56,868 bases of DNA, taken from Paludibacter sp. GTDB lineage: Bacteria; Bacteroidota; Bacteroidia; Bacteroidales; Paludibacteraceae. The position numbers and the translations under genes were made by a program. Numbering within the stretch: position 1 is the first letter of the stretch; every line of letters begins with the position of its first letter. The notes beneath the pieces were generated by a model, which worked only from the letters and a program-made list of their open reading frames with translations, made no database searches and was not told where the DNA came from. Location: positions 1 to 56,868 of the forward strand of contig JAQUWU010000033.1 in the NCBI GenBank assembly GCA_028692715.1, given 5' to 3'. Positions 28,191-55,090 of this stretch are shown here, in pieces.

Positions 28191-30215
28191 TTATTTAACC
28201 AATAACTTGCTTGTATTGGTTGAGGTTTTGATAATATAAGTCCCATTATTTAAAGTAACAGGAAACTGTCCGAAAACAGTTTGACCTGTTTTTATACTTT
28301 TACCCGTAAAGTCGTAAATATTGACTATTCCGGTATAATTGTTTAGTTTTAAAACTCCGTTTGAATATGATGCTATATTATCATTTTCGGATATTTGCTT
28401 AACAGCGTTAGGGTTATCTACTATACTAATTTTAATAGCTCCTAAATAGAAAAATTTAGTAGAATTGTTGTTATTATCACCTGCCTCAGATTTAATAATT
28501 ATTTCGCCTTGTGCGTTTGGTTGTATATTATTTATTTCTGTTATCTCAGTTGTGTTGTTCGAGGAGTTTAAGGTAGTAAAAGCTGTTGTAGAGCCTGTTA
28601 TCGTATATTTTGCTTCGCGATTGTCTGACACACCAGTACGCGATGCAAATATTGAGAAACTGTAATATTTTGTGTTATCTAAACCTGAAAGCACAAACTC
28701 TCCTAGCGGATTAGCTGCTACTGTTCCCCAAACAACTGAATGGCCAAAGAAATTGTCGATAGTTGCAGTTCCTGGAAAAATTGATGCTTCAGCACTTATT
28801 GTTGCTGTTCCAGTAGTGTTGTATCCATTATAAAATGGATCTGTTATTTTCAACGTTATGCCAGAATTGTCTCCCATATCATCAATTAATGATTGGTTGG
28901 CACTTTGAGTATCGCTAATATTATTCCAATTTCCGGGGGTCAAAAAACTTTCAGCATTCGATCCAAAATCAATAAATATATCCCCTACAGCATCGGGATT
29001 AATTATCGTACTGTTTATATTGAAAGTAATATCATCAACATATATTTTTATTGGGGATGAATTTACATTGTTTTGAGCGTAAAATATTGTTTTCACATTG
29101 TCATATGTAAAGTTAGGAGAGATATCTTTCCAATCCTGAAGAGGTATAATAACCTTCGACCAAACACCTGCAGGAATTTGATCTATATAGGATGAAAGTA
29201 ACAGTCTTGCTGTAGTGGTACCCGTATTAGATTCGAGATAGATGGATGGCAGATCGATATCAGCAATTGTGTTTTCAGAATAAACTCTGAATTCTAGTTC
29301 TTTATGATTGGTAATATTAGACGGAATCCAATCGGTTGCGGCAACACACGCAACCCAATTTCCACCTTCTACTCCTTGATAATCAAGTTTAAGAGACGTT
29401 ACTCCATTATAATGGTAAGTGCTATCGGTTGATATTTTCCCCGCCTGAACAGTATTAAAAACACTTGGAGCAGTCGCATTTACCCAACTTGGATCATGAT
29501 AATATGGATGACTGCTTTCTTTGAATATCGAAATATCTGCGTTTATTGTTTCGGAAGTTAATAAGTATGGTTCAAGAATTGATTTCCAAAGTGCATATCC
29601 AGTTGCGTTCATATGAAGTAAATCTGAACCAAAAAGACTTGAATCAGGAGTTCCGTCAGAACTAAGCATCGGTGTCCAGGTATCCACATAAGTTAGGTAT
29701 TCATATTTATCAGCATAATTTTTCATTAAGAGATTTGCTGCTTGGTAAATTGTAAAAGCACTTGTACGTGATGGACTTGGTTTGATTGAAACAAGTAGGA
29801 TTTTAGCATTGGGATAATAAATATTGATCATTCTGGTCATGGTAATCACATCATCCATAAACTCATCGGCTGTTTTTGTTGTTCCATACAAATCATTATC
29901 TCCTTCGTATAAAACCACTTGTTTAGGACTGTAAGGAGCAACAACTTGATCGAAAAAATAGATTAAATCCGTCATCATTGAGCCACCAAATCCGCGATTA
30001 AGTACATTTGAATTTGGAAAATCTGTTTTTAAGCCAGTCCACATTGTAAAAGTTGAACTTCCTGCAAATAGCACAACATCACTCGCTACACCATCGTTGG
30101 TATCTTGAGCTGCAAAATTACTCATAGCACTGGTCCATAAACTGGCACGAGAATATTGAGATTGTGCTACAAAAATTAAATTTATAAATACTATAAAAAA
30201 AAATATACGTTTCAT
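28191..30215 (-). CDS. Secreted SGNH-fold esterase with CBM-like modules and T9SS-type tail
   Basis: 674 residues, signal peptide 1-19. The first 215 residues are an SGNH hydrolase: block I FAGSS with Ser54, block II GFGGS, block III GDND, and block V DLLHMN with the catalytic Asp-His pair. It most resembles the acyl- or acetyl-esterase branch (the 'GSSSIRxW' kind). Residues about 235-400 are a CBM-like beta-sandwich and about 415-610 a second unknown module starting DFGSNAESF; both are shared with the neighbouring gene. The last 65 residues (NYTGIVNIYDFTGKSI to LLVK) resemble a T9SS sorting tail without YPNP. Last gene of the minus-strand glucan locus. I infer a surface esterase that strips acyl groups from the polysaccharide; the substrate is unproven. 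Confidence 0.82.
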   Translation of the reverse strand: MKRIFFFIVFINLIFVAQSQYSRASLWTSAMSNFAAQDTNDGVASDVVLFAGSSTFTMWTGLKTDFPNSNVLNRGFGGSMMTDLIYFFDQVVAPYSPKQVVLYEGDNDLYGTTKTADEFMDDVITMTRMINIYYPNAKILLVSIKPSPSRTSAFTIYQAANLLMKNYADKYEYLTYVDTWTPMLSSDGTPDSSLFGSDLLHMNATGYALWKSILEPYLLTSETINADISIFKESSHPYYHDPSWVNATAPSVFNTVQAGKISTDSTYHYNGVTSLKLDYQGVEGGNWVACVAATDWIPSNITNHKELEFRVYSENTIADIDLPSIYLESNTGTTTARLLLSSYIDQIPAGVWSKVIIPLQDWKDISPNFTYDNVKTIFYAQNNVNSSPIKIYVDDITFNINSTIINPDAVGDIFIDFGSNAESFLTPGNWNNISDTQSANQSLIDDMGDNSGITLKITDPFYNGYNTTGTATISAEASIFPGTATIDNFFGHSVVWGTVAANPLGEFVLSGLDNTKYYSFSIFASRTGVSDNREAKYTITGSTTAFTTLNSSNNTTEITEINNIQPNAQGEIIIKSEAGDNNNNSTKFFYLGAIKISIVDNPNAVKQISENDNIASYSNGVLKLNNYTGIVNIYDFTGKSIKTGQTVFGQFPVTLNNGTYIIKTSTNTSKLLVK

Positions 30216-30233
30216 GATATTTAGGATTAATAA

Positions 30234-30262
30234 ACTCCGTAGCCAATAGTTGACTACGGAGT
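30234..30262 (-). other. Intercistronic hairpin before the SGNH gene
   Basis: ACTCCGTAG and CTACGGAGT form a 9-bp perfect stem with an 11-base loop; on the minus strand TTTATTAA follows, a weak U-run. It could reduce read-through or protect the upstream message. Confidence 0.55.
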
Positions 30263-30299
30263 CAAATGAATTTAATTTTAATATGAAATAATTTTAATT

Positions 30300-32252
30300 T
30301 TATTTGGCAATTAATTTAATATTACCCAATGAGGTATTTGCTATATAAATGCCTTTTTCAAGTTTAACTGACATATAACCAAATACGGACTGTCCTTCGG
30401 AGATTAATTTTCCAGCTACATTGTAGACTTTGACAATACCAGTATAATCATCAATTCTTAATACTCCATTTTGATAATATCCATTTAACGCTTTTTCAGC
30501 GCTAGGATTAATTACAGACGTGGAATTTCCGGTCTCTGTCATTTTCACGGCACCAAGGAAATAGAATTTCTCTGCACTTGTATTATTTGGACCAGCTTCT
30601 GTTTTAAAGGTTATAACACCTGCTGATGTTGGCATTATATTCATTATTTTTACTACTTCACTCTCATTGTTTGAAGCGTTCAGAACAGCTGACTTTCCTG
30701 CACCTGCACCAGTAATTGTGTATTGTGCATCTCTTATGTTCGTAACATTCGCTCTTGAAGCAAAAATTGTAAAGGAATAGTATTTAGTAGCATCGAGTCC
30801 ACTTATGGTGAAAATCCCTTCTGGGTTAGCTACCGTAGTTCCAAAAACGCCACCGTTACCAAAGAAATTATCACTGGTTGCTGTTGAAGGGAATATTGCT
30901 GCATCTCCCGTTGTCAAACTGGCACCTGATGTATTGTAACCATTGTAAAACGGATCGGTAACTAGTAAAGTCGCTCCTGTAGCATCTCCCTGATTATCAA
31001 TTAATGCTACATTAGCAGCTTGATTATCTGTAACGTTATTCCAGTTGTCGGTAGACATTAGAGCAGCTGAATTTGAACCAAAATCGATTAATGTGGTTAC
31101 TTCGCCAGGAACAACTGTTGATAAATTAAATGTTATTTCATCTAAATACAATATATGCGCTGCATTATCAGCTGCATTCTGTGAAAAGAAGAGTCCTTTA
31201 ATTACATCTTTTGCAGTAAATGTAGGATCAGCAGCCCAAAAATCAGCTAATGGTACTATTACTTGTGTCCATGTGTTTGCAGTTAAATTAGATACATAAT
31301 TTCCAAGTTCTACATTCCCAGTTATATTTGGAGTACCGCTATGTGATTGTAAATAAATCTTTGGCAAAGCAGTTTTTACTAAATCTACTGGTGAGTTTAC
31401 CCAGAATCTCAAATGAGTCATAGTACTTACATCAAATGCAGCCCATTCCAATCCTGCAACTAATGCTTCCCAATTTCCACCTGTAGCAGAATTCCATTCA
31501 AGTTTTAATGCATTAGCTCCTGCTTTAACTGGAGAAGTAACTACTGGTAATTTATCACCAGGTTGTGTTGGATCTGACCATAAAACACCTGTAACTGTAC
31601 TTGGAGCAGTTGTGTTCATCCAGCTTTGATCACGAAAAAGATCGCTTGCACTGTTATCAAATAAAGTAAGTTTTGTAGGTGGTGTTGGCGGTACAATTGA
31701 CTCATCATAAACAATTGTAATATCATCGATATAAGCAATTGCATTTACATCAACTGGTGTATAATAATCAGGGAATAAACTCAAGGTAGTAATGTTTTTG
31801 ATTCCATTAGCGTAAATATCAAAAACAATAGTTTCCCATTCATCGGTTTTTGTTGCCTGATTTGTAGGATTAAATTCTTTTGAAATAGCTCCAGCACATT
31901 TAATTCGTAATTGCGAAGTGGCATTTTTCCGAAGATATTTAATTTCAATACGATGGTAACCAGTAGGAATCTCTTCTGTTAATGTAGCCCAAAAGCCTGC
32001 CCAACCTTGATTATCACCAGTATCGTAACGTTTCCATTCCCATACTTTATTGCTTGAGTTCACGGCATCTTTTACCGGATTATCAACCACTGCAATATCC
32101 ATAGAGGCTGACGGATTTACATTTACTGTTGTTGTAAAATTTACCTGTCCATTTTCAAAATCATCGAGTACAAATGTATCCAACGTTGTTGTGGCTTTTG
32201 CTACAAAAAGCAGTGTAAAAGCCATTAAAAGAGTAAAAATTGTTTTTTTCAT
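30300..32252 (-). CDS. Secreted non-catalytic CBM-like protein with T9SS-type tail
   Basis: 650 residues, signal peptide 1-20 (ending AKA). Three beta-rich modules follow: about 22-190 (FVLDDFENGQ..YIDDITIVYD, a CBM-like jelly roll), about 205-385 (LKLEWNSATGGNWEALVAGL..IYLQSHSGT, paralogous to the middle module of the SGNH protein), and about 395-580 (DFGSNSAALMSTDNWNN, also shared). The tail DYTGIVKVYNVAGKLISEG to LIAK is a likely sorting domain lacking the YPNP box. No catalytic motif is visible, so I infer a surface glycan-binding protein that helps hold the polysaccharide, in the place a SusE/F-like protein often takes. It is 36 bp behind the upstream GH144-like gene and 84 bp before the SGNH gene. 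Confidence 0.8.
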   Translation of the reverse strand: MKKTIFTLLMAFTLLFVAKATTTLDTFVLDDFENGQVNFTTTVNVNPSASMDIAVVDNPVKDAVNSSNKVWEWKRYDTGDNQGWAGFWATLTEEIPTGYHRIEIKYLRKNATSQLRIKCAGAISKEFNPTNQATKTDEWETIVFDIYANGIKNITTLSLFPDYYTPVDVNAIAYIDDITIVYDESIVPPTPPTKLTLFDNSASDLFRDQSWMNTTAPSTVTGVLWSDPTQPGDKLPVVTSPVKAGANALKLEWNSATGGNWEALVAGLEWAAFDVSTMTHLRFWVNSPVDLVKTALPKIYLQSHSGTPNITGNVELGNYVSNLTANTWTQVIVPLADFWAADPTFTAKDVIKGLFFSQNAADNAAHILYLDEITFNLSTVVPGEVTTLIDFGSNSAALMSTDNWNNVTDNQAANVALIDNQGDATGATLLVTDPFYNGYNTSGASLTTGDAAIFPSTATSDNFFGNGGVFGTTVANPEGIFTISGLDATKYYSFTIFASRANVTNIRDAQYTITGAGAGKSAVLNASNNESEVVKIMNIMPTSAGVITFKTEAGPNNTSAEKFYFLGAVKMTETGNSTSVINPSAEKALNGYYQNGVLRIDDYTGIVKVYNVAGKLISEGQSVFGYMSVKLEKGIYIANTSLGNIKLIAK

Positions 32253-32288
32253 AATAATTTAATTTTTAAAAAGTTTGTAATTATTTGG

Positions 32289-33965
32289 TTATCTTAATTT
32301 TGCTATCAAATTGTACTCCTTATTATCAGAAGTTTTCAGAGTGATAGTATGCTGTTTTCCGTTTTGTATGTTATCGTCATCAAATGAGAATATGTTTGCT
32401 CCAGCTATTCCAATTACTTTTGCTTGATAAACAATTTTGTTCTCTGCATTTTCTTTGATTGTGAATTGAACTTCTTCCCCTTGATTCAGAGAATAATCCA
32501 ATTCATAATTACCCCGGTCAGGATGACGCATCATGTCATATTCATTTGTTAGGGTATTGATGTTAGCTCTATAGAAACCTTCATCAAATGTTTGAACATC
32601 TTTTATCCCTGCTAAATTGAGCCCGTTTTTTATATTTTCATTCTTCATCAATAAATTCCAAATAAGTCCTGAACGATAATTTTCAATCATTACCACAATT
32701 GGACCCTGATCAATAGCTAAGTGCTTCTTTTCAGAAGTATTGGTGCTAGGACAATAAGCATCTGCAAATCCGTAAGTTCCTTCCAGTAAAGACTGAGTGG
32801 AAATGTTTAATAAAAATTGAGTACTATAAAATGGAGTATATGGATACGAACTTAAAGCGGCTGTTGGTGCAATCACTCCATCATCATTAGTTGGTGAACG
32901 TGCACTATAATTCCAACTTGGAGCTTTTGCTCCGTAGCAAGCGGTAAGTCCCCAGTTTCTTTCATCATATTCGTACGAAGAAGGAGCATCTTTTATGCAG
33001 TAATGTCTGTTAATCATAGTATGCGCCACATTTTGATTCCAATAATCTACGGTTTCATCTTGTAACTTTTGAGGGTTCAATCCTAAAAAAGAATAATGTG
33101 CAAAAAACAATGGACCGCCATAGTCCGAACCTAAAGGAAGTTCATAACCATAAAATGATCTGTTAGCCTGATATATTGAATTATTATTTTTCCAGCCCTG
33201 ATTATATACATCTTGAGTTACATTGTGAGGTTCTGGTGCAGAAAGTGCAAGAATATATACAATCCATGCTTCGTTCCAACCTTTTATATCAAGTGAGAAT
33301 TTGTTGTCTTGTGAATACCAAAGCCATTTTATGGTATTTCCTCCAGCGCCGTAAAATTTCCAGTCGATAGTATTCCAAAATGAATTTACAGAATCACGAA
33401 TTTCAGTTTCCACACTTGTATCCGCAGTATAGTACTCCAAAGCAGTCAATAGTCCGGCTGTCATAAATGATGATTCAACAACATCGCCGGTTTTTATTTG
33501 ATCTCCAAATGCGTGAGCTGTACCATCTGTATTGTACCAATGCGACCACATGCCTTTAAATCGTTCGGCTTTACCTAAAAAACGAACAATTTTTTGTGTT
33601 TGAGCTGCTGCTTCTTCACGGGTTATCCAACCACGTTCAGAGCCTACAATTATTGACATTAATCCAAATCCACTTCCTCCAGTAGTAACAACAGTTCCAC
33701 GTTCATTTCCTTCGTATGCCATTCCAGTTGTAGGATCAGCACCCGCATAGAAATAATTAAAGGTCTTGTGTTGCCATTCGTCTATAACAGGTTTAACTTT
33801 TTCTGGAGAATAGGTTTCATCGTTTTTAATGACTATTATGGTTGGAATTTCGGCTTCTTTACATGAAAAAAAGAAAAGGAAAATAACGAACAACAGTGTA
33901 CCCCCAACTCCTAAATGGGAGTTGAGAATATTGTTGATATAATTATTTTTCTTGAGCAATTTCAT
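32289..33965 (-). CDS. GH144-like (glucoamylase-family) lipoprotein, likely endo-beta-1,2-glucanase
   Basis: 558 residues. A lipobox FFSC lies near residue 35, so it is a lipoprotein, possibly surface-exposed. The body (about 60-540) is the PF10091-type (alpha/alpha)6 barrel: TTGGSGFGLMSI, HWYNTDGTAHAF, GDVVESSFMTAGLLTALEYY, GWNEAWIVYILALSAP, GGPLFFAHYSFLGLNP, and VMIENYRSGLIWNLLM. GH144 enzymes of Bacteroidetes with this layout cleave beta-1,2-glucan (from memory). A second copy of the family sits at 38586-40184. The signal region is odd: codons 15-22 (NSHLGVGG) come from a short palindromic repeat otherwise seen between genes, lengthening the part before the hydrophobic core. It is 66 bp behind susD. 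Confidence 0.85.
   Translation of the reverse strand: MKLLKKNNYINNILNSHLGVGGTLLFVIFLFFFSCKEAEIPTIIVIKNDETYSPEKVKPVIDEWQHKTFNYFYAGADPTTGMAYEGNERGTVVTTGGSGFGLMSIIVGSERGWITREEAAAQTQKIVRFLGKAERFKGMWSHWYNTDGTAHAFGDQIKTGDVVESSFMTAGLLTALEYYTADTSVETEIRDSVNSFWNTIDWKFYGAGGNTIKWLWYSQDNKFSLDIKGWNEAWIVYILALSAPEPHNVTQDVYNQGWKNNNSIYQANRSFYGYELPLGSDYGGPLFFAHYSFLGLNPQKLQDETVDYWNQNVAHTMINRHYCIKDAPSSYEYDERNWGLTACYGAKAPSWNYSARSPTNDDGVIAPTAALSSYPYTPFYSTQFLLNISTQSLLEGTYGFADAYCPSTNTSEKKHLAIDQGPIVVMIENYRSGLIWNLLMKNENIKNGLNLAGIKDVQTFDEGFYRANINTLTNEYDMMRHPDRGNYELDYSLNQGEEVQFTIKENAENKIVYQAKVIGIAGANIFSFDDDNIQNGKQHTITLKTSDNKEYNLIAKLR
33904..33924. repeat. Palindromic repeat inserted in the signal-peptide coding region
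   Basis: CAACTCC (33905-33911) and GGAGTTG (33918-33924) form a hairpin, and CCCAACTCCTAAATGGG matches the intergenic element at 25764 (CCCAACCTCTAAAGGGG) in 14 of 17 positions. Here it lies in frame inside the lipoprotein gene. Confidence 0.65.
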
Positions 33966-34031
33966 TTCTTGTTTTTTTTAGAAGTACATTTATCAATATA
34001 GGTCTTATCTTTACCTATTTATGGGTTAATA

Positions 34032-35519
34032 TTAGTAACCAATATTTTGAGTTAAAACTCCGTTGGATTTATCAATTTCAGTTTGTGGAATAGGAAATAA
34101 TTCGTGTTTGTTTTGAACAAAGCCAGTAATGACGTCTTTTGCAACACCCCAACGTACCAGATCGTAAAATCGTTCCCATTCCATTGCTAATTCGATTCTT
34201 CTTTCTTGCCTGATTTTCTGTCGTAATTCTTCTATATCCGTAGTAGTAACCTTGGGGAGAATAGCACTATTTCCGTTGCGGGCACGTTCGCGAACCATTT
34301 CCAATTTAGCCAAAGCTTCGGTTGTGTTTCCAAGTTCACAAGCCGACTCTGCATGCATTAACAATACATCGGAATAACGAATTAGACGAATATTCATCCA
34401 ATATCCTTGTGCAAATGCTGAACGACCATAAATACTGCGTTCATTTGTTCTTACGTATGCCTTTTTGTTAAAGTATTGATAACTTGCAGCATCGGCTTTC
34501 ACCACCCTTCCATCGAGCGTTTCTCCGTTAGTTACTACCGACGCTTCTTTTCGGGGGTCACCTGTTTCATAAGCATCCATCAATACTTGACTTGGCGCAT
34601 TAAAGCCCCATCCCATGTTTGGAACTCCTCTAATACCTTGAATTTGACTGAACTGACTTCCCATATCAGAATTTATTTGCAATTCAGGTTTGTATTCACA
34701 ATTTAATTCAAAAACTGATTCAGGACCAAATTCATTAGCTTCAGTCCATATTTCAGAATAAGGAGTGGATAAATTATTGTCACCGGAAGATATTATCAAT
34801 CCCGTTTGCGTGAATGCTTCCGTCCATTTCTGTTGATACATGTAAACCTTTGCCAAAACTGCACGGGCTGCATTCTGAGTTGCTTTTCCTTGAGTTAGAC
34901 TCGCAACGTTTGCTAATCGAGTTTTGAGGTGCGGAATCGCCCACTTCAAATCTGTTTCAAGATAACTCCACATTTCATCTCTTGTTGATCGTGCAGGAGT
35001 GTTTTCAGTTTGTTGTAATACTTGGTTAACATATGGAACTCCACCAAATGCTTGTGTTAATCGATAATACATTACAGAACGAATAAAAATTGCTTCAGCC
35101 AATAATGTGTTTTTCGTACTTACAGTGTCGGACATAGAGTTCGCTAAAGCTATCGCTTCGTTTGTAGTATAAATAGTGCTATAACAATTTGAATAATAAT
35201 CTTGAAGTTGAGTATTGCTAGGAGTATAACTCATTGCTTTAAATTCAGCAATAACGCCTCCATCTGTAGCTGTACTTCCTTTTTCCACATCGGGAGTTGT
35301 ATAGTTACACATTGCTAAACCAGCCCATTGAAAAGTAAACTTTCTGAGATCACCGTAAGATTCTACTAATTTGGCTTCAACAAGGATGTCAATAGGAATA
35401 GAATCTGTATTTGTATAATTGTAACTAGTCCAACGAGCTTTTGGATAACTATTAAGAAAGTCATCAGAACAGCTGGTTACCAAAAGAATAAGTGCTAAAA
35501 AAAATATTGTTTTTTTCAT
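34032..35519 (-). CDS. SusD/RagB-family glycan-binding lipoprotein
   Basis: 495 residues. Signal peptide with lipobox VTSC, lipidated Cys17. TPR-like helices with NEAIALANSM, EAIFIRSVMYYRLTQAFGGVPYV and the C-terminal LRQKIRQERRIELAMEWERFYDLVRWG, the classical SusD signature, and the HELFPIPQTEID end. It sits on the outer surface as the lid of the SusC channel and binds oligosaccharides to be imported. It starts 11 bp after susC stops, the usual tight pair. Length is close to the family norm. Ligand inferred from the GH144 and GH3 neighbours: beta-1,2-gluco-oligosaccharides. Confidence 0.95.
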   Translation of the reverse strand: MKKTIFFLALILLVTSCSDDFLNSYPKARWTSYNYTNTDSIPIDILVEAKLVESYGDLRKFTFQWAGLAMCNYTTPDVEKGSTATDGGVIAEFKAMSYTPSNTQLQDYYSNCYSTIYTTNEAIALANSMSDTVSTKNTLLAEAIFIRSVMYYRLTQAFGGVPYVNQVLQQTENTPARSTRDEMWSYLETDLKWAIPHLKTRLANVASLTQGKATQNAARAVLAKVYMYQQKWTEAFTQTGLIISSGDNNLSTPYSEIWTEANEFGPESVFELNCEYKPELQINSDMGSQFSQIQGIRGVPNMGWGFNAPSQVLMDAYETGDPRKEASVVTNGETLDGRVVKADAASYQYFNKKAYVRTNERSIYGRSAFAQGYWMNIRLIRYSDVLLMHAESACELGNTTEALAKLEMVRERARNGNSAILPKVTTTDIEELRQKIRQERRIELAMEWERFYDLVRWGVAKDVITGFVQNKHELFPIPQTEIDKSNGVLTQNIGY

Positions 35520-35530
35520 TGTAGTATCGA

Positions 35531-38500
35531 TTAAAAGTTAACAGAAATTCCTGCTGTATAAACTGATGGTATAGGATAAGTTCCGCCACTGTCTATACCT
35601 CCAGTTAAAATGCTTCCACCAATTTCAGGTGTATATCCAGAATTAGATTTGAATGTAATAGGGTTTTGAGCGCTTACATACACTCTTGCTTTGCCTATAC
35701 CCAGAGTTGCTAATGTGTTTTTGGGTAAATTATATCCTAATTGAATAGAGCGAACCCTAAAGTAAGATGCACTTTCTAATAAATTGGTCGATGGTAGAAA
35801 ATTGTTTCCCCTCGAATTATCCAATATCGGTTCGAAGTTTGAAGTACCTTCTCCATGCCAACGGTTTAATGCTGAAGTGTAATAGTTGAATTGTGCATAT
35901 TGAGGGAGCTTTTTAGTGTTTATAATGCTATTCCCAGCAGAACCATTAAAATCTATTGATATATCGAAGTTAGAATAACCAACATTTACACTCATGCCAT
36001 ACGTAAAAGTTGGTATGGTTGTACCAATGAAATCCCTATCTTTATCTGTAATTTCTTCATCTCCATTTAAATCTTTGTATTTAATGTCTCCAGGTTTTGA
36101 TGTCCATGAGGCTGGATAATAATTGTCTATTTCATCTTGAGTTTGAAATATACCTTCCTGAACATATCCATAAATTGCACCGATGGAGTGACCTACTGAA
36201 GTTCTATGATATGTTGAAACTAAGTCTGAATTGTCGTTTCCTAATGCAAGAACTTCGTTCTTCAGCGTTGCTCCATTAACGCTAACTCCATAATCAAAAC
36301 CTCCTATTTTATCTTTCCAACCAACAATAAATTCTACACCACTATTTTGAACCGAGCCTGCATTTGTTATTGCGTATCCCGAACCAACAGATGCAGGAGG
36401 ATCAACATAAGCCAACAAATCATTGGTGGTTTTTGAATAATAGGTTAGTTCTACATTCATACGGTTTTTAAATAACTGACTTTCAAATCCGGCATCCAAT
36501 CCGCTAACAACTTCCCAGTGTATGTTTTCATCTACGACGTAGTCCTGAGTAGGAAGATAGTATGTAACTCCACCAGCCACAACTTGTTGTCCTTTTGGAT
36601 TTATACTTGGAAGCCATAAATAATTTCCTATTTTATCATTCCCGAGCTTCCCCCATGATGCCTTTACTTTTAAATAATCAATATCATTCGTCATGTCTTT
36701 CCAAAAGTTCTCTTCGCTTGCAATCCAGCCTAATCCCACTGAAGGAAAATATCCCCATCTATTGGTTGGCGAAAATTTAGAGGAACCGTCCGCACGAAAA
36801 GTAAGAACCGCTATGTATTTGTTGTCATACGAATAGTTAATTCTACCCAAATAGGAAGCAAAAGATTCTGAAGAATACCAGTCGCTATTATACTTTTTCA
36901 AATCGGAGCCCATGCTTAACATCCAAAAATCTTCCGGAACAATCGTTGTGCTACCACTAATTAAAGAGTCTGTTGAAGCACTAAAACCTTTACTCTCCGA
37001 TACTCTTGCAGTATAGCCTGCCAAAGCTCCAATTCTATGTTTATCAATTACTTTATTGTAGTTTAAAATATAGTCAACTTGATATTTAGAATATTCAGAT
37101 GTACTTCTACTAAAAGAGGTTTTTTCGCTTTTATGTGATGATATAGATGTCTCATTATTAACATCGTAATACGGAGTGAAGTCACTACCCATACTTATAC
37201 CTAAATCTCCGTAAGCAGTTGCTTTAAAACTAAAATCTTTTAAAAAGTTGATTTCGGCATAGATATTACCAACAGCTCGATAACCATAACTTTCGGAAGT
37301 TCCTTTGTTTATTTCCATAACGGCCACTGGGTTTGCAACATCTTTTTGAATGTTGGGCGATGGTGTATAGTATGATCCAATATTGTTTACATCATGATCT
37401 TCCTCTGGAGAATAAGGCGAGTAAGTTGGTAATGCTTTCGCTGCATTTGAAACACTTGCAGTGGCTGGATCATTATCCCAACGGTTTAATGTAACGTTAC
37501 CACCCACCTTTATATTTTTACTTACCTTATAATCACCAGCCCATCGTCCATTAAAACGTTGGTACGAATTATAATTTACAATACCATCTTGTTTGAAATA
37601 TCCCAGCGAAAGTACAGTGCTAGCATTATCTGTAGACTGAGAAATAGTAATACCATGGTTTGTAATTAATGCTGGGCTAAAAATATAAGATTGCCAATCG
37701 GTACCTCCACCTAATAAATCCCCCACCCAATCTGCTGCTGTTGGATCAATATTTTTTAGTTGTTCATTATATAACATGGTGAAATCTGATGCATTTGTCA
37801 ATTTTAGACGATCTCGATCACTTAAAACCTGTAGCCCACCATATCCATCATAGTTTACAGTTAACTTGCCTTTTGAAGCTCGTTTGGTAGTGACGATTAT
37901 CACACCATTAGCACCTTGAACACCGAAAATTGCCAACGATGAAGGATCTTTTAAAACTTCCATCGAACTGATATCAGTTGGATTAATAAAATCAATATTG
38001 TCTGTGAATAACCCATCCACGATGAATAATGGGTTCGTACTTGCATTAATAGTTGCAACACCCCTAATTCTTATTGTGGGCGAACCACCGGCAGAACCAT
38101 TGTTTGTTAAAACCAATCCTGGAACTTTACCCTGCAAAGCTTTCACAGGATTATAATCGGGCGATGTTTTAAGATCTTCGCCACTGATTGATACGATTGA
38201 TCCTGTCAAGTCTCTTTTACGAGCAGTACCATAACCGACTACAACGATTTCATCCAATCCTTTCGCTTCGGATTCAAGTGAAACATTGAAAATTCCACCC
38301 GATGTGATTTTCAGCGTTACTGATTTCATTCCTACAAAACTAAAAGCTACAGAACTGTTTTTAGGTATCTCTGTAAGTTGATACTTTCCATTAAAATCTG
38401 TAATTGTGCCTAAAGTTGTACCTTCAACTTTTACACTCACTCCAATTAAAGTTTCACCGGTAGCCTTGTCCGTAACTGTACCATTGATACTTAGCTTGTT

Positions 38501-38563
38501 TTGTGCGGAAAGAGTTAAACAAGTTAGCATTAATGGTAAAATAATAATAAATAGTTTTTTCAT
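35531..38563 (-). CDS. SusC/RagA-family TonB-dependent outer-membrane transporter
   Basis: 1,010 residues, full length. Signal peptide 1-20, then a carboxypeptidase-regulatory-like domain (INGTVTDKATGETLIGVSV to about 100), the TonB box region LDEIVVVGYGTARKRDLTGS, the plug with GKVPGLVL, SPTIRIRG and NPLFIVDG, and a 22-strand barrel ending in a Phe (TAGISVNF). Imports oligosaccharides through the outer membrane with energy from TonB-ExbBD. It begins 22 bp after the GH144-like gene, in the same operon. No FecR-type signalling domain is present, so control does not go through an anti-sigma factor; the SusR-like regulator upstream is the likely sensor. Confidence 0.96.
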   Translation of the reverse strand: MKKLFIIILPLMLTCLTLSAQNKLSINGTVTDKATGETLIGVSVKVEGTTLGTITDFNGKYQLTEIPKNSSVAFSFVGMKSVTLKITSGGIFNVSLESEAKGLDEIVVVGYGTARKRDLTGSIVSISGEDLKTSPDYNPVKALQGKVPGLVLTNNGSAGGSPTIRIRGVATINASTNPLFIVDGLFTDNIDFINPTDISSMEVLKDPSSLAIFGVQGANGVIIVTTKRASKGKLTVNYDGYGGLQVLSDRDRLKLTNASDFTMLYNEQLKNIDPTAADWVGDLLGGGTDWQSYIFSPALITNHGITISQSTDNASTVLSLGYFKQDGIVNYNSYQRFNGRWAGDYKVSKNIKVGGNVTLNRWDNDPATASVSNAAKALPTYSPYSPEEDHDVNNIGSYYTPSPNIQKDVANPVAVMEINKGTSESYGYRAVGNIYAEINFLKDFSFKATAYGDLGISMGSDFTPYYDVNNETSISSHKSEKTSFSRSTSEYSKYQVDYILNYNKVIDKHRIGALAGYTARVSESKGFSASTDSLISGSTTIVPEDFWMLSMGSDLKKYNSDWYSSESFASYLGRINYSYDNKYIAVLTFRADGSSKFSPTNRWGYFPSVGLGWIASEENFWKDMTNDIDYLKVKASWGKLGNDKIGNYLWLPSINPKGQQVVAGGVTYYLPTQDYVVDENIHWEVVSGLDAGFESQLFKNRMNVELTYYSKTTNDLLAYVDPPASVGSGYAITNAGSVQNSGVEFIVGWKDKIGGFDYGVSVNGATLKNEVLALGNDNSDLVSTYHRTSVGHSIGAIYGYVQEGIFQTQDEIDNYYPASWTSKPGDIKYKDLNGDEEITDKDRDFIGTTIPTFTYGMSVNVGYSNFDISIDFNGSAGNSIINTKKLPQYAQFNYYTSALNRWHGEGTSNFEPILDNSRGNNFLPSTNLLESASYFRVRSIQLGYNLPKNTLATLGIGKARVYVSAQNPITFKSNSGYTPEIGGSILTGGIDSGGTYPIPSVYTAGISVNF

Positions 38564-38585
38564 AATGTATTGATCGAAAGTGTGA

Positions 38586-40184
38586 TTATTTATTGTCTGT
38601 TTTATCTTTGTAATAGAAATTCAAAATCTTAAGTCCGTTTTTTATTTCGGGATTGCTCATAAATAATTTCCAGAGTAAACCACTTCTGTAATTTTCTATC
38701 ATTACAGCAATCGGTCCTTCATCTATGGCCAGATAACTGCGAACCACCTGTTGCCCTTCAACTAATCCCGGATTGTAAGCATCGTAGAATCCATATTTAC
38801 CAAACAATTGTTTTCCCTTATCAAAATAGAAATGACGGATAACATCCATTGATTCTTTTGGTGTGTATACAATTGAGGATACAGCAGCGGTTGGCGATAC
38901 AGTGCCATTGTCATCGGTTGTTCCTGGATGGTGCGATGAGTAACCAACTAATGGATCGTCAGAGGAAGTGAAACCCCAGCAATTTGCTCCGTATCCGGAG
39001 TGCTTTTTGGGATTGTCAATAGCGTAAGCTCTGTGTATTAGAGCGTGTGCACGGTTGCGTTCAAAATAATTTGTATTCTCATCAGTTAATCCATTTGGAT
39101 TTAAACCCAAAAAAGAATAATGGGTAAAAAACAGTGGACCACCATAATCCATTCCCAAATCAAGTTTAATTCCATAGTAACTTTTCCCATTCAAATAATA
39201 GTTTGAGCTTGTATAACACCTCTCATATACTGATAGTTCAATAGGATGAGTTGGTGATGAAGCGGCCAAAATATAGGTTATCAAGGTTTCATCAAATCCC
39301 TTAATCCGATGATTCATTTTGAATCCATAATTTTTCGACCAATGCCAATACAGCGAATCTTTTCCCTGTGTATACCATTCCCAATCTATAGTTTCCCAAA
39401 GCTTTGTAATTCTATTTGACAAATTCTTTTCGCTTTCAGTTCCATTCAAATAATACTGACGGGCAGTCAATAATCCCTGAGTCAGAAAAGCTGTTTCAAC
39501 AAGGTCACCGCCATCATCAAACTGACTGAAACTGAAAACTTTTCCGGTTTCAGCATTGTACCAATGTGCCCAAGCTCCATGAAAACGTTCGGTTTTTTCA
39601 AGAAATCCGACAATTTTATTGATCGTTTGGTAGGCATTCTCTTTGCTGTAATAATTCCGTTCCGCTCCGGCAATTAGTGCCATTATTCCGAAACCTGTTC
39701 CACCAGTTGTAACAATATTGCTATTTACATCATTGCTTCGTTCGCGTGCCATTCCGGTTATCGGATCAGCAAAATCGTAGAAGTAACGGGTAGTATATCG
39801 TTGAACCATATCCAACAATTCATCATCCGAAGCAGGTTTCATCATTGTTGTTACTTCGAATTTAACAGCGTCTATACTTTTTACTGATAATCCTTTAGGA
39901 ATTATTTTGTATATAATTTTTTTGTCTGTAGTAACTGGTTTTTTAAAAAAATCCAGATATGTATCAGAACAATTTTCATTTTTCAAGTCGAAAGTTTTTC
40001 CATTATCTGTAGAACAATAAATTTCGTATATAAAACCCTGCGTATTTTTCCAGTTAAGTTCAACATGTGCAGGATAAGCCGTAGCTTTCATGCCAGATGG
40101 CACAACATATTTTGGAGTCTCAGCAATTAAAGTGCCGAAAATAATTATCACTATAGTGGTTAATATGTTTCTTTTATTGTTCAT
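38586..40184 (-). CDS. GH144-like glucanase with N-terminal Fn3-like domain
   Basis: 532 residues. A signal peptide (cleavage near residue 22, no lipobox) suggests periplasmic or secreted location, unlike its lipoprotein paralogue. Residues about 28-110 are an Fn3-like beta-sandwich, then the (alpha/alpha)6 barrel: TTGGTGFGIMAL, HWYNAETGKVFSF, GGDLVETAFLTQGLLTARQYY, GFDETLITYILAASSP, GGPLFFTHYSFLGLNP and PIAVMIENYRSGLLWKL. The acidic residues in GGDLVETAFL and GFDET are candidates for catalysis; I have not mapped them to a structure. It probably cleaves beta-1,2-glucan, perhaps handling shorter oligomers after import. It starts 3 bp from the stop of the Cys-rich gene and is followed by susC. 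Confidence 0.86.
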   Translation of the reverse strand: MNNKRNILTTIVIIIFGTLIAETPKYVVPSGMKATAYPAHVELNWKNTQGFIYEIYCSTDNGKTFDLKNENCSDTYLDFFKKPVTTDKKIIYKIIPKGLSVKSIDAVKFEVTTMMKPASDDELLDMVQRYTTRYFYDFADPITGMARERSNDVNSNIVTTGGTGFGIMALIAGAERNYYSKENAYQTINKIVGFLEKTERFHGAWAHWYNAETGKVFSFSQFDDGGDLVETAFLTQGLLTARQYYLNGTESEKNLSNRITKLWETIDWEWYTQGKDSLYWHWSKNYGFKMNHRIKGFDETLITYILAASSPTHPIELSVYERCYTSSNYYLNGKSYYGIKLDLGMDYGGPLFFTHYSFLGLNPNGLTDENTNYFERNRAHALIHRAYAIDNPKKHSGYGANCWGFTSSDDPLVGYSSHHPGTTDDNGTVSPTAAVSSIVYTPKESMDVIRHFYFDKGKQLFGKYGFYDAYNPGLVEGQQVVRSYLAIDEGPIAVMIENYRSGLLWKLFMSNPEIKNGLKILNFYYKDKTDNK

Positions 40185-40187
40185 TTT

Positions 40188-40424
40188 CTATATGCTGAAT
40201 TTTCTGTATATCTCTTTTCTTACCGGACAATTACATGTTTTAGAATTGCCAAAACTCATTTTATAATTACAAACATCATTACAATGAATAAAAAGAACTT
40301 TCCCTTCAACCCATCTATCTACTTTGGTATTTAAACAAGTAGCCTTATTGTTTTTTAAGCATTCAAAGTCTTTAGAACAATGAGCTGTTATGGATAATAT
40401 TTTGTTATCGATTTCTATACTCAT
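40188..40424 (-). CDS. Small cysteine-rich protein of unknown function
   Basis: 78 residues, no signal peptide. Seven Cys at 16, 22, 30, 48, 52, 64 and 66, with CNDVC and CNCPVRKEIYRKF at the end. The spacing could bind zinc or an iron-sulfur cluster, or form a small folded knot; none is proved. I recall similar unnamed small proteins ending CTCPVR(K/L)xI in other Bacteroidales, but I cannot name a family. It is placed tightly in the operon: 26 bp behind the GH3 gene and 3 bp before the GH144 gene, so it is surely co-transcribed with the locus. Stop and start spacing and the coherent Cys pattern argue that it is a real gene. Confidence 0.7.
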   Translation of the reverse strand: MSIEIDNKILSITAHCSKDFECLKNNKATCLNTKVDRWVEGKVLFIHCNDVCNYKMSFGNSKTCNCPVRKEIYRKFSI

Positions 40425-40450
40425 TGATTTTTATATTAGTTTATTGTTTC

Positions 40451-42679
40451 CTATTGAACTGATAATGCAAAATTCGTTTCCTTCACATCCCTTGAATTTC
40501 CTCCGATAAATAGTTTGAAGTCTCCCGGCTCAGTGCCGTAAGTCATATCCAATCGGTGAAAAGCCAGCATATCAGGAGTTATTTTGAAAGTTATCACTTT
40601 ACTTTCTCCCGCTTTTAAGTAGATTTTTTCAAATCCCTTAAGCTCTTTTACAGGGCGGGTTACACTTCCTACCAAATCCCTGATATAACATTGAACCACT
40701 TCCTCACCATCGACTCCACCTGTGTTTGTTACATTCACTGAAGCTTCCAAATTACCATTTTCAGTCAATTCACTAGTCGAAAGTTTTATATCCGAATAAA
40801 CAAAAGTGCTGTAACTCAAACCAAATCCAAAAGGATACAAGGGATCGTTAGGACAATCGATATAACGTGATTTGTATTTCGGATTTTCAAGATAAAGCGG
40901 TCGTCCGGTATTTTTTTCGTAGTAGAAAATCGGCACTTGTCCCAACGTTCTCGGGAAAGTCATAGTCAGTTTTCCTGACGGATTATAATCACCAAACAAA
41001 ACCTGTGTAATTGCTTTTCCACCCATTGTTCCCGGATACCAGGCTTCCAGTATTGCATCAGCCAAAGTTGATTCCTTTGATAAATCAAGTGGACGTCCGT
41101 TCATTAGAACAACGATTACTGGTTTATTTAACGTTTTAAGTTTTTCGAGTAATTCAGTCTGAACACCAGGAATTTTTATACTTGTGCGACTGGCAGCTTC
41201 ACCACTCCATTCCCAATCTTCGCCAATGACCATTACAATTTTATCAGCACGACGCGCTAAAGCAATGGCAGCCGGAAAACCACTTCGATCTTCACCCATT
41301 TTTTTGCATCCTTCAGTATAAATCACATTTGATTCGCCATTGTAAAGTTTTATTTCATCAATTGTGGATTTCATAAAATCCCAATCTCCTGCAGCCTTCC
41401 AAGATCCTAATAAGTCTCTGGTAGAAGCAGCTAATTCACCTATGACAACAATTTTTTCACCTTTTTGAAGTGGAAGAACATTATTCTCATTTTTCAGAAG
41501 AACCATTGATTTTTTAGCTACATCCAAAGCTGCTTCCAAATGCTCAGGAGCATAAACCAAACGTTTTTCCCGTTCCTCATTGCAGTATTTATAGGGGTCA
41601 TCGAACAAATCAAGCATAAACTTCACTTTTAGAATTCGTCTAACAGATTCGTCAATAAGTTTGACATCTAATAATCCTTCATTAACCTGATTTTTCAGGT
41701 ATTTGAAATAAACTTCACCCTGCATGTCCATATCAACACCGGCTTTTATAGCCAATAAACCTGCATCAACTTCGTTGGCAACAATACCGTGATTCACCAT
41801 TTCATTGATTGAAGTATAATCCGTAACCACAAAACCTTTAAATCCAAGTTCTGTGCGTAAAAGATCGGTAAGTAGATATTTACTCCCGGAGGCAGGGATG
41901 CCATCCAGTTCGTTAAAAGAAGACATAACGCTCATTGCTCCAGCATCGATGGCCGCTTTGTAGGGTGGGAGATAGGTGTCCAGAAAAACACGTTTTGACA
42001 TATCCACCGTATTATAATCGCGTCCTGCAAGCGGAGCACCATATGCTGCAAAATGTTTTACACAGGCAAGAATGGAAAGCGAATCGGATAAATCGTTTCC
42101 CTGAAAACCATGAACACGAGCTACAGCAATTAAAGAACCCAAATAAGGATCTTCGCCTGCACCTTCCGATACGCGTCCCCAACGAGGTTCAACTGAAATG
42201 TCGCACATTGGTGCAAAAGTCCAGTTAATTCCGGAAGCTGCAGCTTCGATGGCAGAAACACGGGCTGATTTTTCAATCGCTACCATATCCCAAGAAGCGG
42301 ATTCGCCAAGAGAAATAGGAAAAATTGTTTTGTGGCCGTGAATAACATCGTAACCGAATAATAGGGGAATACCCAGTCTCGATTCTTCTACAGCAATTTT
42401 CTGAAGTTTGCGTGTGTATTTTGCGGTATGTGCGTTAAAGATGTTTCCACAATTTCCTGAACGGATATCATCTAAATAACCGCTTTTAAGTGTAGGTCCG
42501 GTAACATCCCAGTCACTGGTGTATAATACCATCTGACCAATTTTTTCTTCCAGTGTCATTAATTTTATCACTGAATCAACCCGTTGATCCAATCGTTCTT
42601 CGGTCGAAGATATATTCGATTTATTGCAGGAAGTAAAAATAAGTACAAAAAGGAGTGAGGTAAAAATATATTTTTTCAT
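40451..42679 (-). CDS. GH3 beta-glucosidase lipoprotein (probable beta-1,2-oligoglucoside specificity)
   Basis: 742 residues from the ATG at 42679; the longer frame is rejected because MKKYIFTSLLFVLIFTSC gives a clean lipoprotein signal and a promoter (42714-42746) lies in the extra part. N-terminal TIM barrel with WGRVSEGAGEDPYLGS, the KHFAAYGAP motif, and the nucleophile Asp287 in GFVVTDYTS; then the alpha/beta sandwich (VVIGELAASTRDLLGSW; VMVIGEDWEWSGEAASR with the acid/base region) and a C-terminal Fn3-like domain (ASVNVTNTGGVDGEEVV). It removes glucose from the non-reducing end. The pairing with GH144 recalls the sophorose-cleaving BT_3567 type of B. thetaiotaomicron (from memory). First gene of the operon; probably periplasmic, anchored by its lipid. 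Confidence 0.93.
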   Translation of the reverse strand: MKKYIFTSLLFVLIFTSCNKSNISSTEERLDQRVDSVIKLMTLEEKIGQMVLYTSDWDVTGPTLKSGYLDDIRSGNCGNIFNAHTAKYTRKLQKIAVEESRLGIPLLFGYDVIHGHKTIFPISLGESASWDMVAIEKSARVSAIEAAASGINWTFAPMCDISVEPRWGRVSEGAGEDPYLGSLIAVARVHGFQGNDLSDSLSILACVKHFAAYGAPLAGRDYNTVDMSKRVFLDTYLPPYKAAIDAGAMSVMSSFNELDGIPASGSKYLLTDLLRTELGFKGFVVTDYTSINEMVNHGIVANEVDAGLLAIKAGVDMDMQGEVYFKYLKNQVNEGLLDVKLIDESVRRILKVKFMLDLFDDPYKYCNEEREKRLVYAPEHLEAALDVAKKSMVLLKNENNVLPLQKGEKIVVIGELAASTRDLLGSWKAAGDWDFMKSTIDEIKLYNGESNVIYTEGCKKMGEDRSGFPAAIALARRADKIVMVIGEDWEWSGEAASRTSIKIPGVQTELLEKLKTLNKPVIVVLMNGRPLDLSKESTLADAILEAWYPGTMGGKAITQVLFGDYNPSGKLTMTFPRTLGQVPIFYYEKNTGRPLYLENPKYKSRYIDCPNDPLYPFGFGLSYSTFVYSDIKLSTSELTENGNLEASVNVTNTGGVDGEEVVQCYIRDLVGSVTRPVKELKGFEKIYLKAGESKVITFKITPDMLAFHRLDMTYGTEPGDFKLFIGGNSRDVKETNFALSVQ

Positions 42680-42713: not shown

Positions 42714-42746
42714 ACAAAGAAACACATTGATATTTCCTATTGCAAA
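42714..42746 (-). promoter_or_regulatory. Promoter of the glucan-utilisation operon
   Basis: Minus strand TTTG (42743-42746), 21 bases, TTTCTTTG (42714-42721), one base off TAnnTTTG. A start near 42708 leaves a leader of about 28 bases before the GH3 start. Confidence 0.6.
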
Positions 42747-42783: not shown

Positions 42784-42831
42784 TAAAAAAAAATGACCCC
42801 ATTTTATCCCTACAAAGAAATAAAACGGGGT
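42784..42831 (-). terminator. Terminator of the SusR-like regulator gene
   Basis: ACCCCATTTTAT (42796-42807) pairs with ATAAAACGGGGT (42820-42831), 11 of 12 positions, and on the minus strand a T-run follows. It separates the regulator from the operon it faces. Confidence 0.85.
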
Positions 42832-45738: not shown

Positions 45739-46025
45739 AGTATCAACTTTATTGATTTTTTGATTCCGGTTTTTATGCAAATTACGGAAAGTTCTCTGAA
45801 ATTGCAAAATATTTTCAATTATATCTGTGAAATTTACTTTTACTTGAAACTTTTACAATTCTTAATCAGAGTAAAATGGAATCTTAATAGGTGCATTCAT
45901 TAAATATCAATTTTAAAGTCATTTAATAGTAAATCCAAACAGGTTAAATGTAATTCGCATTTATATAAACTTATGTAAAACAATAAATATTATCTTTGCC
46001 ATACATAATTAAAGAATGAAGCAAA

Positions 46026-55076: not shown

Positions 55077-55090
55077 AATTTTTAAATTTT

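Follow-up and report, generated by a model that had tools for sequence, protein, structure and literature searches.

Our analysis indicates that eight genes in the window (the whole stretch of 56,868 nucleotides of Paludibacter sp. DNA studied here) likely form a PUL, with alternative capture cassettes, for beta-1,2-glucans that other bacteria make, whether as linear chains or in cyclic form (e.g. osmoregulated periplasmic glucans). Beta-1,2-glucans of the cyclic and osmoregulated periplasmic kinds are produced by many Gram-negative bacteria. Cyclic glucan synthases match PF10091; the genome from which the window comes has neither a third PF10091 match nor a MdoG/OpgG match, so its host is probably not a maker of such glucans. 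The initial annotation had already proposed this substrate, and gene content continues to favor it: with two GH144-related enzymes (GH144A and GH144B), a BglX-type GH3, SusC, SusD, and an SGNH protein, this is a probable beta-1,2-glucan locus. The eight close-spaced minus-strand genes that it placed at 28191-42679 are all present as ORFs at those positions (Table 1), with gaps of 3-84 bases between neighbors, a spacing that suggests a single transcript. Pfam and NCBIfam searches matched GH3, PF10091 twice, SusC, SusD, and Lipase_GDSL_2 plus CBM30 in the operon; a SusC/SusD pair and CAZymes stand in a single close-spaced run, the arrangement by which a Bacteroidota PUL is recognized.

Table 1. 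Features of the predicted beta-1,2-glucan locus (positions in the window)
Feature	Position	Strand	Evidence
Regulator: Reg_prop, Y_Y_Y, weak LuxR-type HTH	42874..45741	-	domain profiles
Terminator-like hairpin	42796..42831	-	16 pairs, T-run
GH3 lipoprotein, BglX-like beta-glucosidase; common to both cassette versions	40451..42679, Met at 42679, stop 40451	-	PF00933, PF01915, PF14310
Cys-rich protein, 78 aa, function unknown, not locus-specific	40188..40424	-	
GH144A, canonical residues; common to both cassette versions	38586..40184	-	PF10091 244.7 bits; 5gzh E 4e-136
SusC-type TonB-dependent transporter, in exchanged cassette	35531..38563	-	TIGR04056 821 bits
SusD-type lipoprotein, in exchanged cassette	34032..35519	-	PF07980, PF14322
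GH144B, lipoprotein by eye, divergent clade, in exchanged cassette	32289..33965	-	PF10091 192.9 bits; 5gzh E 6.5e-96
CBM protein, 650 aa, in exchanged cassette	30300..32252	-	alignments; PDB profile
CBM protein, d1 module	32189-31695	-	alignment-set border
CBM protein, CBM30-like d2 module	31679-31119	-	alignment-set border
CBM protein, domain C	31097-30513	-	alignment-set border
CBM protein, T9SS-like tail	30491-30303	-	tail profile
SGNH protein, optional cassette part	28191..30215	-	PF13472, PF21582
SGNH protein, SGNH domain	30158-29556	-	PF13472
SGNH protein, CBM30-like module	29534-29016	-	PF21582
SGNH protein, domain C	28985-28413	-	alignment
SGNH protein, T9SS-like tail	28388-28194	-	tail profile

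In the scheme that we infer, which extends to localization, the sequence of steps, the form of the substrate and its acyl group, and the inducer, CBM30-like proteins (probably exported by the T9SS) and SusD would hold the glucan at the cell surface, where the SGNH protein would strip ester substituents and GH144B, as a surface lipoprotein, would cut the chain. SusC would import the pieces, GH144A would cut them further in the periplasm, GH3 would release glucose, and the Reg_prop/Y_Y_Y regulator would sense a product. The regulator, GH3, and GH144A would form a constant part, behind which SusC-SusD-GH144B-CBM(-SGNH) is exchanged with an alternative cassette. Loci combining SusC, SusD, GH3, and two GH144s have already been published. 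The Maribacter dokdonensis locus (PMC8072126) has the same core of SusC and SusD with one GH3 and two GH144, and the SusC, SusD, GH3, and GH144 core also occurs in abundant PULs (PMC6499787) and in fosmid PULs (PMC6550366). The available text of these reports mentions sulfatases in the marine loci, and an esterase or a CBM30-like protein goes unmentioned in it, although the association with CBM and SGNH proteins may be implicit in the PUL lists of PMC6499787. The locus described here differs from them in that one of its GH144s belongs to a clade without residue D135 (see below). It brings forward three candidate proteins, namely a D135-less GH144, a predicted beta-1,2-glucan-binding module, and a predicted glucan esterase; our literature search found no description of the removal of ester groups from beta-1,2-glucans by consumers.

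Within the genus, the SusC-SusD-surface GH144-binding protein segment occurs as two cassettes behind the same GH3 and GH144A, and the two were never seen together. The window carries version 2, with GH144B and the CBM30-like binding protein; version 1 has a LamG binding protein, and both GH144s of version-1 loci are canonical. SusC identity is 66-71% within version 2 and 28-34% to version 1; GH3 identity is 76-84% in both versions, and the regulator also precedes version-1 loci, with 53-70% identity in the five loci whose match was of sufficient length. Cassette type disagrees with the concatenated GH3 and GH144A tree, limited to the 17 loci with both genes, in which a single clade is rejected (p-AU 3.9e-6). 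Left out of this tree were G021, G022, and G026, with no GH144A beside GH3, and G016, whose GH3s are other paralogues; in a tree of GH3 alone, G016 was placed among the outgroup. Blastn blocks between loci were assigned to locus pairs from their coordinates, and both genus and order-level counts exclude at least ten named loci that duplicate genomes in the set. It seems that related species have traded the import and capture half as one block, so that nature offers here an example of an import cassette swapped while sensor and downstream enzymes stay. In what is accessible of PMC5967196, a divergent SusC/SusD pair in an otherwise similar fructan locus of B. thetaiotaomicron enables the use of inulin; here, by contrast, the block is larger and would have moved between species.

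As the two cassettes are exchanged behind a constant part, that of the window probably handles a different form of the same polymer, that is, a decorated (e.g. ester-decorated) or otherwise different beta-1,2-glucan. Cassettes may also differ for reasons other than substrate. We regard it as rather unlikely that both import the same plain beta-1,2-glucan, with the outer-membrane part swapped as phage receptor or antigen and the SGNH protein a mere passenger. Such an explanation would accommodate the conflict between cassette type and tree, the regulator, GH3, and GH144A common to both versions, and the four of ten genus cassettes without SGNH, but it sits badly with the fact that the binding protein (LamG versus CBM30-like) and the GH144 at the surface are replaced as well, and with the altered cleft residues found throughout the GH144B clade. 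Returning to a cassette adapted to another form of the glucan, we tentatively raise the possibility that in Bacteroidales the sensor and the periplasmic pathway for beta-1,2-glucan stay constant, and that the whole outer-membrane capture cassette is repeatedly swapped to follow the decoration of this polymer. The cassette of the window might then be a specialist for ester-decorated (e.g. succinylated) cyclic glucans, combining a GH144 subfamily with a remodeled cleft, a beta-1,2-glucan-binding CBM30-like module family, and an SGNH glucan deacylase. OPGs bear succinyl esters, according to the available part of PMC9558356.

The two GH144-like enzymes of the initial annotation are both homologous over the catalytic domain to CpSGL (5gzh, 5gzk), a GH144 endo-beta-1,2-glucanase, and both keep the catalytic acids E142 and E211; however, they are not equivalent, D135 being lost in GH144B. 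For CpSGL, the accessible text of PMC12102758 gives E211 as the general acid, E142 as the likely base, and F268 and Y330 as clan residues, and reports that mutation of D135, a residue not conserved in the wider clan, drastically lowers activity. These four residues are kept in GH144A and GH144B; the place of D135 is held by D in GH144A and by I157 in GH144B. In a comparison set from which only identical sequences had been removed, I or V replaces D135 in all 20 members of the GH144B clade, and D is found in 76 of the 82 other GH144s; E142, D139, E211, F268, and Y330 are kept throughout the clade (20/20). GH144B also has K158 for N136 and a changed YWHWS-type segment, and its cleft residues differ clade-wide. 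On these alignments we assign GH144A to GH144 and GH144B, provisionally, to a divergent GH144 relative, without treating D135 as family-defining; its apparent membership in a divergent, D135-less clade is new here. GH144A has by eye a signal without lipobox and would be periplasmic.

Since D135 is missing, GH144B may have no activity, or its substrate may be a different glycan. That it is a surface glucan-binding lipoprotein and no longer a hydrolase, GH144A doing all the cutting, seems unlikely to us: the loss of D135 in every clade member and the altered YWHWS-type segment would suit such a role, but E142, D139, E211, F268, and Y330 are intact in all of them, and in G021, G022, and G026, where the locus has no GH144A, GH144B is the only GH144. 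Kinship to GH144 need not mean glucan, since in B. xylanisolvens, as far as the available text of PMC11739564 goes, a beta-1,2-galactosidase that does not cut beta-1,2-gluco-oligosaccharides adjoins a GH144 homologue. Together with the remodeled cleft of GH144B, this might point to another beta-1,2-linked glycan, such as a polymer of mixed composition or a beta-1,2-galactan. We hold this to be slightly less probable still, as version-1 loci, whose two GH144s are canonical, have GH3 and GH144A in common with the window and our Pfam search found no GH35 among the operon genes. Sophorolipid was also considered as a possible substrate. That the PF10091 proteins and the locus are unrelated to beta-1,2-linkages is highly improbable, given their homology to characterized beta-1,2-glucanases, whose catalytic residues they keep, and a related SGNH gene that elsewhere adjoins an SOGP-type phosphorylase.

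The CBM protein, whose module borders were placed by hand from two alignments, has no Pfam match at E<=0.01, but a profile of 12 modules matched CBM30 structures in the PDB at 1.5e-8. Against the PDB, the d2 module profile matched best (E 2.1e-20) the N-terminal domain of BDI_3064 (5z06), a protein that carries this extra domain and a GH144 domain, whereas here the module lies in the separate CBM protein and in the SGNH protein. In a search of the order confined to the best two candidates per genome, which yields minimum counts biased toward strong matches, 19 of 20 loci outside the window have the d2 module next to a GH144 or as part of one, in 15 of them within a single ORF. We see in the CBM protein, built of CBM30-like modules, a candidate beta-1,2-glucan-binding protein. 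It is not the addition of this locus that it had first been taken for, as the cassette occurs in several families and many genomes encode fusions of this type of module with GH144. The d1 module was rejected as a GH144 marker (GH144 in 4 of 14 d1-only loci).

The SGNH protein matches Lipase_GDSL_2, and its CBM30-like module scores 32.5 bits against PF21582 (cut-off 27). Residues S53/S54, G77/G78, N107, D198, and H201, which we take to be the SGNH/GDSL signature blocks (Ser, Gly, Asn, Asp-x-x-His), are invariant in 11 of 11 aligned proteins. The predicted esterase gene is an optional extra of the cassette, and relatives recur near other GH144 loci. Among 13 order-level matches above 200 bits, at least four lie within 15 kb of a GH144 and nine have none seen nearby (best three candidates per genome, giving lower bounds that lean to strong matches). 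Two genomes, G083 and G173, have a gene of this SGNH subfamily behind an SOGP-type phosphorylase; gene sets with SOGP (1,2-beta-oligoglucan phosphorylase), e.g. L119 and L120, include a related SGNH gene, whereas the window is without SOGP and relies on GH3. Of the 10 genus genomes carrying the cassette, 4 are without the SGNH gene, and in other families no cassette was seen with it alongside; the gene is hence not essential. The T9SS-like tails of the CBM and SGNH proteins (18.7 and 21.1 bits) fall below the curated cut-off of 23; the genome has a T9SS SprA match of 2846 bits and 150 tail matches.

GH3 matches NF011678 BglX at 829.8 bits (cut-off 666). It also matches, with E 6e-223, the structure 5xxl, which bears the chain title 'Periplasmic beta-glucosidase' and which we take to be BT_3567. 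This structure is the fifth of 97 matched PDB sequences, and four distinct sequences representing three molecules (3u48, 3u4a, 5tf0, and 9urf) score higher, so the BT_3567-type sophorose specificity proposed at first is no more than a candidate. The promoter proposed at 42714-42746 was not recovered, a sigma-70 scan, which does not cover Bacteroidetes promoters, giving nothing there on the minus strand; the hairpin between regulator and operon is the one found against a mean of 0.2 in shuffles. The HTH of the regulator (GerE, 18.2 bits) stays below its cut-off of 23.5. The Cys-rich ORF does belong to a real gene family, with 53% identity to an ORF between GH3 and GH144A in G032, but we rejected it as a specific component of the locus, homologues occurring elsewhere too (10 of 60 genomes, including its own).

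Phosphatase-type matches were found in at least 39 of 393 genomes (best two candidates per genome). A link to phosphoryl removal is no more than a lead: among the places listed, which are part of all, no phosphatase lay near a PF10091 protein. In G026, a LamG plus purple-acid-phosphatase protein is encoded between the CBM and SGNH genes, and in G201 a fusion joins the d2 module to a purple acid phosphatase of this kind.

Our analyses make it fairly likely that the window harbors a beta-1,2-glucan locus with an exchanged cassette, probably for a different (e.g. ester-decorated) form of the glucan, a reading held at this confidence because its decoration part rests on inference. The eight minus-strand genes of the initial annotation were borne out; neighbors are 3 to 84 bases apart, and a terminator-like hairpin lies between the set and the regulator. 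The window is contig C36 of a genome of 4.85 Mb, assembled into 122 contigs. It contains, within this locus, the two PF10091 matches of the genome, and MdoG/OpgG yielded no match genome-wide under a search that detected the E. coli positive control. Loci combining SusCD, GH3, and GH144 are already published (PMC6499787, PMC8072126, PMC6550366); in the literature searched, mostly titles without supplementary tables, we found no description of a D135-less clade, a CBM30-like module as GH144 companion, the SGNH link, or the cassette exchange. The Cys-rich protein of the locus has no Pfam family over cut-off, and its homologues lie at scattered sites in 10 of 60 genomes, its own included. A second SusD/SusC pair reaches the contig end, its enzymes falling, by eye, outside the window.

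Coordinates of the features discussed (window, or fetched loci L)
Sequence	Coordinates	Feature
Window	16-7059	Repeat protein, 2347 aa
Window	28191-30215	SGNH protein
Window	30300-32252	CBM protein
Window	32289-33965	GH144B
Window	38586-40184	GH144A
Window	40188-40424	Cys-rich protein, 78 aa
Window	42831-42796	Terminator-like hairpin
Window	42874-45741	Regulator
Window	53085-56620	Second SusD/SusC pair
L034	15305-17761	LamG + purple acid phosphatase
L056	4420-5829	S/D-type PF10091
L057	5117-6544	S/D-type PF10091
L058	8306-9712	S/D-type PF10091
L061	8639-10036	S/D-type PF10091
L062	772-2184	S/D-type PF10091
L086	8756-13114	GH144-d1 fusion
L090	6494-10243	d2-phosphatase fusion
L093	17100-18500	S/D-type PF10091
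L100	5707-7113	S/D-type PF10091
L110	14493-15875	S/D-type PF10091
L119	10241-17233	GH35, phosphorylase, SGNH
L120	4794-11247	GH35, phosphorylase, SGNH

Among the window's own genome and 35 relatives sampled from the genus (21 with PF10091), two cassettes occur behind the same GH3 and GH144A genes. The window's cassette, version 2 (SusC-SusD-GH144B-CBM, with or without SGNH), is found in ten genomes and version 1, composed of SusC, SusD, a lipoprotein of ~290 aa (the single one scanned bears LamG), and a second GH144 of canonical type, in nine; G018 is outside these counts, G016 is atypical, and G004 has a CBM remnant alone, at a contig end. Identity to the window is 76-84% for GH3 in both groups and 65-74% for GH144A where present; for SusC it is 66-71% in version 2 against 28-34% in version 1, and for SusD 63-67% against 29-35%, the version-2 ranges including G037, from another family. 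Genomes G025 (version 2) and G013 (version 1) share 90.9% DNA identity from the genes upstream through GH3, falling to 84.7% across GH144A. Past this gene, their 11.0 and 7.1 kb share just three matches of 77-122 bases, at ends of GH144 genes, and identity returns (65.8%) in a downstream patatin-like gene. When mapped on a GH3 + GH144A tree built from 17 loci, the cassette label requires 7 changes (shuffled mean, 6.0), of which well-supported branches force 5, and a single version-2 clade is rejected (p-AU 3.9e-6; 2.3e-6 with G037 out of the group). Repeated exchange of the cassette as a block fits best. An ancestor with both cassettes, followed by many losses, is possible. No genome of the genus sample was seen to carry the two together. 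The exchanged part may also be GH3-GH144A rather than the cassette. In other families the SusC-SusD-GH144B-CBM block occurs in different gene orders, with GH144 and GH3 behind it in L073, L077, L079, L083, and L089, and a third order in L082. Block exchange of the cassette has a likeness in Bacteroides thetaiotaomicron, where a divergent SusC/SusD pair changes fructan use (PMC5967196).

Both PF10091 proteins match the same PDB structures, 4gl3 and the endo-beta-1,2-glucanase CpSGL (5gzh), with E values of 4e-142 and 4e-136 for GH144A and 1.5e-103 and 6.5e-96 for GH144B. The general acid is assigned to residues equivalent to CpSGL E211, and E142 is the likeliest candidate for the base; the clan is marked by E211, F268, and Y330 (PMC12102758). 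The proposed pair of GH144-like enzymes is supported, the two not being equivalent: in an alignment of 102 sequences (window, fetched loci, and three PDB chains), GH144A has D135, E142, E211, F268, and Y330, and GH144B keeps E142 and E211 and has D135 replaced. All 20 members of the B clade have I or V at D135 and K at position 136, D135 being present in 76 of the 82 other sequences. The clade retains D139, E142, E211, F268, Y330, and D400, and alters 19 columns that are ≥90% constant in 74 canonical GH144 sequences, including H114, W182, H193, S195, Y368, and Y396. GH144B is thus a GH144 relative with many altered positions, and a putative enzyme. By eye, GH144B has a lipoprotein-type signal, absent from GH144A; the former would be at the surface and the latter periplasmic. 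Eight further PF10091 proteins (27-30% identity to GH144A), with S and D replacing D139 and E142, may represent another family of the clan; GH35 lies near those of L058 and L062.

The CBM protein carries single d1 and d2 modules, the latter CBM30-like, together with a domain C that also occurs in the SGNH protein and a T9SS-like tail; among its complete relatives, the number of d modules is two to four. Twelve d2-type modules, seven taken from GH144 fusions, were combined into a profile, which matched the N-terminal domain of BDI_3064 (5z06, 2.1e-20) and CBM30 structures (1.5e-8) in the PDB; the SGNH protein alone matched 5z06 at 0.0018. Across 393 genomes of the order, scoring at most the two best candidates per genome so that counts are lower bounds, at least 20 loci outside the window had d2-type matches at E ≤ 1e-10. 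GH144 lies within the fetched stretch in 19 of 20, in the same ORF in 15, and the sole exception (G201:C3) fuses d2 to a purple acid phosphatase. GH144 immediately precedes the CBM protein in all 18 loci, from 24 named ones, that have upstream sequence and d2 (L067-L084); ten are records of genomes already sampled, and the other eight (L067, L070, L073, L077, L078, L079, L082, L083) have B-clade GH144. Specificity is lower for module d1, with GH144 present in 4 of 14 d1-only loci; a 1453-aa Flavobacterium ORF fuses d1 to a GH144 domain. Our literature search found no paper titled for a beta-1,2-glucan CBM, its top match being on CBM92. In L034, a LamG and purple acid phosphatase protein is encoded between the CBM and SGNH genes, and in L090 this kind of phosphatase is fused to d2. 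These enzymes could possibly remove phosphoryl groups; none of the phosphatase homologues among the matches listed was near GH144.

The SGNH signature residues are invariant in all 11 aligned sequences. Six of the ten version-2 genomes of the genus have the gene (the window's own, G014, G025, G026, G033, and G021, in the last on a separate contig from the cassette), and it was not seen in the nine version-1 genomes, some of whose contigs end early. At order level, scoring at most the three best candidates per genome, at least 13 matches exceeded 200 bits, excluding the window and G110, G214, and G306 (profile members found via adjoining GH3/GH144). GH144 lies within 15 kb of four (G083, G099, G173, G411), with a chance probability of 7e-6 for at least four under a rough 0.01 per match; G173 and G411 belong to the same family, and in G411 the SGNH gene is on the opposite strand with other genes intervening. 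No GH144 was seen within 15 kb of the remaining nine, one of which (G093) is on a 4.65-kb contig. In G083 and G173, GH35 and an SOGP-type 1,2-beta-oligoglucan phosphorylase precede the SGNH gene, followed in G083 by GH3, and in G200 a SusC-SusD-GH3-GH144 run closes with a weaker SGNH relative. Loci L119 and L120 have GH35, SOGP-type phosphorylase, and SGNH genes consecutively, with GH3 next in L120, and probably represent a second kind of beta-1,2-glucan gene set with the same SGNH subfamily. Osmoregulated periplasmic glucans bear succinyl and methylmalonyl groups (PMC9558356), and a title cited therein reports O-ester-linked succinyl on Brucella cyclic beta-1,2-glucan; the predicted SGNH protein is plausibly a deacylase.

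T9SS export of the CBM and SGNH proteins is likely, not certain, because the genome encodes SprA and at least 150 TIGR04183 matches (198 candidates, 150 scored), and the two tails score 18.7 and 21.1 bits, respectively, below the cut-off of 23. At the other contig end, the repeat protein has a T9SS tail (TIGR04183, E 6.6e-7).
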